The notes under the pieces were generated by a model. It was not told the origin of the DNA and did not search any database. It saw only the letters and a list, made by a program, of their open reading frames with translations. Position numbers and translations under genes: made by a program. Shown here piece after piece: positions 50,737 through 52,510 of a DNA stretch of 64,000 nt; the first letter of the stretch is position 1; each line of letters starts with the position of its first letter. This stretch comes from Prochlorococcus marinus XMU1419 (GTDB lineage: Bacteria > Cyanobacteriota > Cyanobacteriia > PCC-6307 > Cyanobiaceae), in contig NZ_JAAORO010000002.1 of NCBI RefSeq assembly GCF_017695955.1, forward strand, positions 248,001 through 312,000. The letters are read 5' to 3'.

Positions 50737-51003
50737 TTATTTAACAATATCCCTACAAAATTCCCAAATTCTTTGTTTACTTTTCAGACTAGAAAGCCTC
50801 GATAATTTCTCAAAATTAGTTTTAGTTTTTTCAACAGATAAAAGTCTACAGTTATATTTAATTTGATAATGCCTTGAAATAATTCCTAATTTAAAAGCAA
50901 AATCGCAAAAGATAATGAAAATTCCGAATATTAAAAAAATTTTTAATAAATTTGAAAAAGACTGAGAATAATTCTCCTTTTCAGTTTTTAATTCAAACTT
51001 CAT
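50737..51003 (-). CDS. Small membrane protein (88 aa), unknown
   Basis: One membrane helix (about residues 21-41) between a charged N-terminus and a basic C-terminal region (RLSSLKSKQRIWEFCRDIVK). It ends 3 bases from the converging permease gene. The next gene upstream overlaps its start (TAATG). Unknown family. Confidence 0.6.
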   Translation of the reverse strand: MKFELKTEKENYSQSFSNLLKIFLIFGIFIIFCDFAFKLGIISRHYQIKYNCRLLSVEKTKTNFEKLSRLSSLKSKQRIWEFCRDIVK

Positions 51004-51230
51004 TATTTAACAATATGTTGAGGACACTTAATTGCAGCAATAGCAACAGCTGTAACTTTAAAATTTTCTGACTTCTCAATAACCTTTTTAACTTCTAATG
51101 GACCAAATTTGTGACTAGCATCACTATAAGAAAGAAGTAAAGACTTATAATTATCATGACCTAAATTTCTATATTCACAGAAATTATCTCCAACATAGTT
51201 CAAAAGGGTTATTAATGTTAATTCAATCAT
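51003..51230 (-). CDS. Small soluble protein (75 aa), unknown
   Basis: Begins MIELTLITLLNYVGDNFCEY, then GHDNYKSLLLSYSDASHKFG and a helical end with IAAIKCPQHIVK. No membrane segment is certain. It is coupled by overlap to the 88-residue gene downstream. Not recognised. Confidence 0.6.
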   Translation of the reverse strand: MIELTLITLLNYVGDNFCEYRNLGHDNYKSLLLSYSDASHKFGPLEVKKVIEKSENFKVTAVAIAAIKCPQHIVK

Positions 51231-51394
51231 TAAAGCTTTTTAACTTACAAAGTTCATATGAATAATACAATGCATAATTTTTTTAACAAGTTTAATCGCT
51301 AAAAACACTTTAAATCTGGAATTTAAAAGGTCACTTATGGATTGTATTATTTCAAGATTATTTCTGAATTGCGCAAAAATATAAATGAAAAACA

Positions 51395-51528
51395 TTAAAG
51401 CACTATCCGTAGTGTGCACCAGTAATCTTTAACGCACTACCGATAGGGGGTTGCATTTTTTAAGAAATTGGTTTAAAAATAAGGTTCCCCATCACCTGGC
51501 CACACTTATGTGAGGCCTTTTTTTTTTC
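51395..51528 (+). ncRNA. Candidate free-standing structured RNA with strong terminator
   Basis: CTATCCGTAGTG (51403-51414) and CACTACCGATAG (51435-51446) form a 12-base-pair stem with one mismatch; GCACTA/TAGTGT can also fold locally around TCCG, so two structures compete. About 50 bases later there is a strong terminator on the same strand. No protein gene lies between, and the next gene on either side does not read into it from the + strand start. This is the layout of a small RNA gene. The 5' end is not defined. Confidence 0.5.
51498..51528 (+). terminator. Rho-independent terminator of the candidate RNA
   Basis: GGCCaCAC TTAT GTGaGGCC with one A-A mismatch, followed by eleven T residues (51518-51528). 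On the opposite strand no T run follows, so it acts rightward. No coding gene ends just upstream. Confidence 0.85.
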
Positions 51529-51697: not shown

Positions 51698-52510
51698 CTA
51701 AAAAAAACTGATTAGGGATTTCATAAGTAAACTAATCCCAACAAAAAAACAGACGATTATAAAAGTTTTTTTAATTAATTTGTTTCCCTTTAACTTTGAT
51801 AGATGAGCTCCTAAATATCCTCCTGTAAAAGAGCCAACTATCAATATTAGAAGTAAATTTAAAGATACTGTACCTATTTTACTCAAAAAAATAGCTCCTA
51901 TGAAATTCCAAAAAATTCCAACTGTAAAAAAAGTTACACTTATTGCACTAAGAAAATCCATTCCATAGGTTTTTATTAAAAGTATCGTTACGAGCAATCC
52001 CGTCCCTGAAGAAATAGAACCATTTAGAATACCTATTATGAAAATAAAAATTAAAAATCTAATTTTTTGATTCAAATTAAGTCCATTTTCCCTAGATGAC
52101 AAACCTAAATCTGATTTTAAAAATGAGTAAATTGAGAGAAATATTGAAATCACCCCTAAAAATAAATATAAATACTTTTCTGATATAAATTCAACGATAG
52201 AAGCTCCAAAAAATACTCCTGGGAGTCCAAAAATCAAAATTTGCAATACAACATTAATATAATTTTTTAGAGATTTGTAATTTCTTAATGAACCACCAAG
52301 TCCCAATGCTACTGTTGCTAATTTATGACTTGCTAAAGCCTGATAATATGGAACACCAAATAAAATCAATGCAGGCAATTGAAGTAAGCCTGCTCCACCT
52401 CCAGAAATTGCTGAAAAAGTATTAGAAAAAAAAGATATAAAAAATATTGAAATACTCCTAAAAAAAGAATATTCAAGGCTATCAATAAAGTTTGTTAATA
52501 AATAAAGCAT
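51698..52510 (-). CDS. TauE/SafE-family membrane permease
   Basis: 270 residues with about eight helices. The Gly-rich FSAISGGGAGLLQLPALILFG (about 34-54) and the repeat ILNGSISSGTGLLVTILLIKTYG (about 160-182) are the family signature, and GGYLGAHLSK lies near the C-terminus. Relatives export sulfite, sulfonates or other organic anions. Substrate is open. The 51529-51697 stretch downstream holds no clear gene. Confidence 0.9.
   Translation of the reverse strand: MLYLLTNFIDSLEYSFFRSISIFFISFFSNTFSAISGGGAGLLQLPALILFGVPYYQALASHKLATVALGLGGSLRNYKSLKNYINVVLQILIFGLPGVFFGASIVEFISEKYLYLFLGVISIFLSIYSFLKSDLGLSSRENGLNLNQKIRFLIFIFIIGILNGSISSGTGLLVTILLIKTYGMDFLSAISVTFFTVGIFWNFIGAIFLSKIGTVSLNLLLILIVGSFTGGYLGAHLSKLKGNKLIKKTFIIVCFFVGISLLMKSLISFF

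Follow-up and report, generated by a model that had tools for sequence, protein, structure and literature searches.

The intergenic interval at 51395-51528 of the window (by which we mean the whole stretch of DNA analysed, 64 kb of a 1.64-Mb genome) very probably carries a gene for a small RNA with its own terminator. The reading as a genus-wide gene for an RNA of a predicted 80 nt or so is strongly supported by sequence conservation. With moderate confidence we further propose that this gene stands under tandem boxes of the nrdJ/NrdR type and that its RNA pairs with the start of the rpoD4 mRNA and blocks its translation. In this scheme, two tandem palindromic boxes would span the promoter and the start site, and NrdR, the presumed repressor at nrdJ, would act on them. 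The RNA (about 51447-51526) would consist of a 5' G-run, a short hairpin, the seed CCCCAUCACC and the terminator. On release of the repressor, which presumably comes with a shortage of deoxynucleotides and with nrdJ switched on, the RNA would be made and would pair with GGCCAGGGUGAUGGGGAUCC, the Shine-Dalgarno/start-codon region of the mRNA of rpoD4 (a group 2 sigma factor), and this pairing would block rpoD4 translation. The features of the locus are as follows.

51003-51230, minus strand: 75-aa ORF, a conserved neighbour without assigned function (no Pfam family).
51400-51415, plus strand: operator box 1, GCACTATCCGTAGTGT, a palindrome of nrdJ/NrdR type that contains arm 1 of the inverted repeat (rank 5 of 63,985 by the de novo nrdJ motif).
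51416-51433, no strand: 18-bp spacer between the boxes, constant in length and drifting in sequence.
51434-51449, plus strand: operator box 2, GCACTACCGATAGGGG, of nrdJ/NrdR type, containing arm 2 (rank 1 of 63,985 by the same motif).
51438-51443, plus strand: inferred -10 element TACCGA, a positional guess (by eye the sole conserved candidate from box 1 to the RNA).
51447-51526, plus strand: predicted small RNA of about 75-80 nt, starting anywhere from about 51447 to 51451 (RNA-only model R2).
51472-51483, plus strand: short hairpin UUUA-AAAA-UAAG, CUUA-GAAA-UAAG in some relatives (seen by eye in alignment A3, absent from the consensus fold).
51487-51496, plus strand: seed CCCCAUCACC, with predicted pairing to the rpoD4 start region (near-invariant; duplex energy).
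51498-51527, plus strand: intrinsic terminator, a stem-loop at 51498-51517 followed by ten T at 51518-51527 (-11.1 kcal/mol, z -3.73).
51698-52510, minus strand: TauE/SafE-family permease, a neighbour (PF01925, E 2.4e-36).

The first-pass annotation had described an element that reads rightward between two leftward genes, and this placement holds, since the 75-aa ORF and the TauE/SafE gene both lie on the minus strand. Among 61 homologous loci, which were retrieved via the element itself and some of which share one genome, the 75-aa ORF adjoins the element in all 61 and the permease in 60. A 59-aa ORF at 51240-51419 (minus strand) overlaps box 1 and has matches in 42 of the 61 loci (42-53% identity in those printed, own copy aside) and none in the MED4 locus L130; it is probably not a gene. 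The absence of a coding gene was also borne out, because in the MED4 copy (L082) a stop follows the third codon of the 20-codon, TTG-initiated frame of the RNA.

The DNA at 51340-51540 matches 203 of the 266 genomes of the genus and 80 of the 87 good ones. The genus is here taken as high-light Prochlorococcus, as its member G032, which we take to be MED4, carries both published rpoD4 primers. The RNA-only model R2, built from 53 sequences, matches 251 of the 266 and every one of the 87 good genomes, with one to five matches each; in the window it matches 51447-51525 with 71.5 bits, a score to be read with the window copy (L047) being part of the model, and the next best match has 13.8 bits. 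R2 was also found in 17 of 40 genomes chosen across the family (1 to 10 matches each, E up to 0.01), and the other 23, without match, are presumably Synechococcus- and Cyanobium-type. In one family genome, seven of the ten R2 matches lie within about 51 kb (G316:C1:89619-140408). A scan for CCCAGG variants retrieved 33 stretches, 31 from Prochlorococcus and two from the uncultured Synechococcaceae isolate AG-439-B13. The viral contigs and phage records searched gave no match to the element. The conservation at the level of both DNA and RNA model, together with that of the neighbours, bears out the earlier suggestion of a non-coding RNA with its own terminator, and from it we infer that the interval is transcribed. 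The G-run by the presumed RNA start ranges from 4 to about 11 G across copies (for example L078, L088, L100 and L103), possibly by slippage at initiation.

The terminator had been announced as strong, about 50 bases downstream of the repeat and followed by eleven T; strong it is, and it begins 51 bases after the second arm, while the T-run counts ten. Its stem-loop reads GGCC-A-CAC-TTAT-GTG-A-GGCC, and none of 200 shuffles of the terminator part is as stable. In 44 of 53 relatives, this part exceeds its own shuffles in stability by more than 2 sd. A simple terminator scan listed none in the interval, we think because of the A-A mismatch in the stem. The consensus fold of the 53-row RNA alignment (A3, made from 56 candidates by dropping a mis-assigned copy, a truncated one and one more of high-light type) holds only six pairs, none with changes on both sides; therefore, we claim no RNA structure beyond the short hairpin, seen by eye, and the terminator.

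The evidence on the promoter comes from a comparison with nrdJ, the class II ribonucleotide reductase gene. The family NrdJ_Z (TIGR02504) identified 0 of 5 and was discarded; TIGR02505 is the correct one, and with it nrdJ genes were collected across the taxonomic family, the upstream stretches of 34 being used. A motif was derived de novo from these 34 stretches by expectation-maximisation from random starts, with no typed consensus, and proved to be the palindrome ACGCCACCGGTGGCGT, by which the two arms of the inverted repeat rank 5 and 1 among the 63,985 positions of the window. Once this motif had been masked, a second search yielded an unrelated GC-rich one. The single top match of the nrdJ motif lies within the RNA promoter at all 55 high-light loci, at all 19 RNA-model loci and at 27 of 33 pattern-found loci. 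By length, 1.7, 0.8 and 0.4 would be expected, and permuted motifs, with averages of 8.8, 3.5 and 1.6, equal the observed count in 1, 0 and 0 of 300 cases. In the reverse test, a matrix of the high-light sRNA boxes scores the nrdJ stretches at a median of 8.2, their shuffles at -2.4 and the rpoD4 upstream regions at -5.9, although one by one only 5 of the 34 nrdJ stretches beat 99% of shuffles. The copies behind the counts of promoter top matches, spacing, covariation, terminators and left hairpins, and the 56 candidates for alignment A3, were gathered with the exact 10-mer; those whose seed has changed, L028 for example, are omitted.

An earlier matrix, by which the arms ranked 1 and 2 of 63,985, was largely circular, its boxes having been picked by a consensus typed after the arms had been seen; the spacer was restricted to 13-17, and six of the 34 nrdJ promoters were dropped. 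With the same picker, matrices from shuffled promoters also find the arms, placing both among the top 16 in every one of 20 trials and as the top 2 in two of them, and therefore this test is withdrawn as evidence. The picker does find real boxes, with a score of at least 20 in 28 of 34 promoters versus 4 of 680 shuffled ones. The nrdJ boxes are weak in three high-light genomes (L189-L191). The regulator gene nrdR (TIGR00244) is present in nine of nine genomes searched, the copy of the host genome lying at G000:C1:296032-296472. Exact matches to the operator inside a gene that we take to be ruvC (L178 and L179) look like coding chance. Meanwhile, the perfect palindrome CACTACCTATAGTG occurs at L167:1501-1514 and L177:1501-1514, ahead of an operon of presumed cobO-like, dcd and thyX genes beside what we take to be ntcA, a position fitting a deoxynucleotide regulon.

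The boxes are 34 bp apart in the window. Among 106 copies, the spacing is 34 bp (63 copies), 40 (18), 33 (11), 41 (5), 31 (3), 32 (2), 42 (2), 39 (1) or 30 (1), that is, 33-34 or 40-41 bp in 97 and 31-32 bp in five; spacings of 34 and 40 bp are about half a helical turn apart. Previous work places NrdR boxes about 31-32 bp apart (PMC2892513), and the nrdJ promoters agree with that published spacing, 28 of the 34 having a spacer of 15 or 16 although 5-40 was allowed. Because the spacing here departs from it, we speak of NrdR-type boxes and do not file them as a proven NrdR site. The arrangement resembles the NrdR-controlled nrd promoters in having two tandem palindromic boxes that span the promoter, box 2 overlapping the inferred -10 and the start, and in that the nrdJ-derived motif finds the boxes; it differs in that a putative small RNA, and not a reductase gene, would be controlled, and in the spacing of 34 bp versus 31-32 bp (PMC2892513). 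Recognition of a similar palindrome by some regulator different from NrdR would account for the spacing of 34 or 40 bp, and permuted GC-rich palindromes do sometimes find the arms (24 of 2000 column-permuted motifs placed both in the top 5). We nevertheless regard such a regulator as rather unlikely, since the top match of the nrdJ motif itself falls so regularly in the RNA promoter. The arms are best described as palindromic boxes of the nrdJ type that would work like an NrdR operator, the binding of NrdR being suggested by this likeness.

The predicted target rests on the seed. Alignment A1 holds 30 high-light copies retrieved through DNA similarity alone; 29 of them have the complete seed 10-mer, and all 30 keep the first nine letters. 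The invariance of the seed within R2 is built in, because many rows were found by a seed-containing pattern. The sequence CCCCATCACC occurs exactly five times in the host genome: in two RNAs of the family, in one left partner (described below), inside one coding gene, presumably trpD, and at the start of a sigma factor, which is the only gene start among the five. This start reads AGGAGGCCAGG-GTG-ATG-GGG-ATC, and the protein belongs to the cyanobacterial RpoD family (TIGR02997). Its MED4 orthologue carries both rpoD4 (PMM1697) primers reported under MED4 locus tags for Prochlorococcus PCC9511 (PMC2921402). When 81 genomes were searched with the protein, the best 30 loci all had the exact 10-base complement at the rpoD4 start. 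The predicted duplex of the seed region with the rpoD4 Shine-Dalgarno/start region has -36.8 kcal/mol and ranks first against 3,633 stretches of the window (mean -9.3, sd 3.8, best -24.4), and the best of 500 shuffled seeds reaches -28.9. In sequence, the element shows what is expected of a bacterial trans-acting antisense sRNA gene, being a conserved intergenic gene with a terminator, no ORF and a seed complementary to a gene start. PMM1697 has earlier appeared, with weak scores, among the candidate targets of Yfr1 (PMC3142192).

At many sibling loci, a second, leftward RNA seems to start across the boxes with GGCYGGGUGAUGGGGAU or a similar sequence and often has, by eye, a terminator of its own. 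At many of these loci, it carries GGGUGAUGGGGAU, the same as the rpoD4 start region, in the loop of a hairpin. With a stem of at least 4 pairs required, the motif lies in a hairpin loop in 31 of 32 distinct left copies (L064-L116), compared with a fraction of 0.56 for shuffled flanks, the best offset having been chosen for real and shuffled flanks alike. Meanwhile, the stem arms vary jointly, for example GGCCG/CGGUC, GGUCGG/UCGGCU and UGGCUGG/UCAGUCA. Because the left motif copies the rpoD4 start region, the left hairpin RNA may perhaps be a decoy that mimics it. The second copy in the host genome (L064:860-1115, that is, G000:C3:31759-32014) shows both parts as a divergent pair that is complementary across the seed motif, the right RNA facing a left hairpin RNA with a terminator-like end of its own.

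These left RNAs also give ground for another view of the target, in which the small RNA is real but chiefly titrates, or is titrated by, the divergent hairpin RNA and family members, the rpoD4 likeness having some other cause. Besides the GGGUGAUGGGGAU hairpin loops at sibling loci, the behaviour of the target site may be counted in its favour: CAGGGTGATGGGGATCC at the rpoD4 start is unchanged in 30 loci (L239-L268), including six genomes without an R2 match, and since it is exact where no RNA is detectable, the rpoD4 start must be conserved for further reasons too. However, the window copy has no left partner and yet is conserved, and the rpoD4 complementarity runs past the 10-mer into GGCC, covering the ribosome site. 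We therefore consider this view unlikely, and pairing with the rpoD4 start remains the preferred reading.

The arms of the inverted repeat, CTATCCGTAGTG (51403-51414) and CACTACCGATAG (51435-51446), are complementary at 11 of 12 positions by eye, and the repeat listing gives the pair as a 27-base repeat with 70% complementarity. Each arm is also partly self-complementary, arm 1 being CACTA-TCCG-TAGTG; both the repeat and the local folding were thus correctly noted in the first-pass annotation, which took them for two competing folds of an RNA. Accordingly, an earlier view had the RNA start upstream of 51400 and include both arms as a switch between local and long-range hairpins. The arm region indeed folds well by itself (-16.9 kcal/mol, z -3.04, two of 200 shuffles as good), and the whole interval has -37.8 kcal/mol (z -3.40, two of 200 dinucleotide shuffles folding as well), while the predicted RNA without the arms has a z of only -1.72 (10 of 200 as good). 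In addition, an average of 3.39 of the 4 central positions are paired between the high-light arms, and with the two groups pooled the arm complementarity exceeds permutation (p 0.002), which we ascribe to group structure, as the high-light and other copies differ. When the own arm 2 was compared with shuffled arm 2, after removal of the 17 copies out of 106 in which a box scored no more than 5 bits, no covariation was found within the 33 distinct high-light arm pairs (p 0.96) or the 31 distinct others (p 0.48). Similarly, RNAalifold on the 30-row alignment gave none of 31 pairs with changes on both sides. The would-be loop keeps its length and not its sequence: the spacer has 18 bases in 55 of 56 high-light-type copies at a mean pairwise identity of 0.42, whereas in the 56 copies the boxes reach 0.94 and 0.92 and the first 46 nt of the RNA part, which end with the seed, 0.96. 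A spacer of constant length and free sequence fits promoter geometry, and a palindrome that is present twice will look like one extended inverted repeat and equally like a pair of local hairpins, hence the appearance of competing folds. As the arms, moreover, are found by the nrdJ-derived motif and precede the stretch with RNA-level conservation, they are better explained as DNA operator boxes than as an RNA stem, and the claim of competing folds finds no support; a switch built from them seems improbable. That the interval holds a strong terminator and promoter debris without a functional RNA is scarcely credible, given the contrast between the RNA part and the spacer in identity and a copy in every one of the 87 good genomes of the genus.

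The findings can be combined into a wider and more tentative proposal, which we consider possible and somewhat doubtful, namely a genus-wide circuit in which NrdR, the sensor of deoxynucleotides, would control both the reductase and a multi-copy sRNA family silencing RpoD4 at the start codon, with a divergent hairpin decoy at many copies, so that the supply of DNA precursors would set a daily-cycle sigma factor with a tunable threshold. If the proposal is true, the reductase repressor and a group 2 sigma factor are connected through a genus-wide small RNA, DNA synthesis is tied to transcription control, and an sRNA and a target-mimic decoy are joined in one locus. Few regulatory proteins are reported in Prochlorococcus (PMC2518516). 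The MED4 rpoD4 (PMM1697) cycles daily (PMC2663038), and rpoD4 was lower at 15:00 under UV, which delays replication, a difference significant only before multiple-test correction (PMC2921402).

A comparison with Yfr-type cyanobacterial RNAs had been recommended and was a fair guess, although no Rfam family matches the element at gathering score and the MED4 copies lie off all Yfr8-Yfr21 positions. In the whole window, Rfam at gathering score returns only two tRNAs, and the sub-threshold matches (best E 0.035) are to families of other organisms. The MED4 copies lie at 936759-936837, 772357-772438 (minus strand) and 348895-348966. Like them, the Yfr8-Yfr21 RNAs of MED4 in Table 1 of PMC2518516 are intergenic and several are of similar size; unlike what identity would demand, no position in that table coincides with a MED4 copy. 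Meanwhile, 13 stretches spanning the 14 Yfr8-Yfr21 entries contain neither the seed nor CACTA-N4-TAGTG with up to one mismatch. Yfr19, an 82-nt RNA in a -> <- -> gene context, was considered and rejected, the MED4 copies being elsewhere and the Yfr19 stretch lacking seed and operator.

Yfr1, Yfr2 and Yfr10 of MED4 are comparable: they are short, act in trans and have conserved motifs that are almost complementary, one RNA being able to neutralise the other, and Yfr2 is multi-copy with a CGRE1 motif at yfr2 (PMC6778093). The present RNA differs from their descriptions, by which the two are set apart, in its seed CCCCAUCACC, in the lack of an Rfam match and in an nrdJ-like operator versus CGRE1. 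Yfr103, a candidate for the low-light copies, is likewise multi-copy, with seven paralogs in Synechococcus CC9605, and is present in low-light Prochlorococcus. From -58 to -29 relative to its start it has an imperfect palindrome, roughly in the place expected of box 1; compared by description only, its paralogs of 290-328 nt, with no high-light strain listed, contrast with the roughly 80 nt predicted here (PMC5069720). In the main-text parts consulted of PMC2518516, PMC7368042, PMC5069720, PMC6778093 and PMC3898218, supplements aside, the RNA is not described. Among the papers listed, titles and the opening parts of abstracts revealed no link of NrdR with Prochlorococcus, rpoD4 or an sRNA, and text matches to the bare seed motif looked, among the matches listed, unrelated by title. 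It is possible that the RNA has already been published under some name. Two copies have established RNAs nearby: a Cyano-1 RNA of Rfam lies about 100 bases downstream of one copy (L068:859-925, minus strand), and a Glutamine-II riboswitch shares a stretch with another (L070:1933-1995, minus strand).
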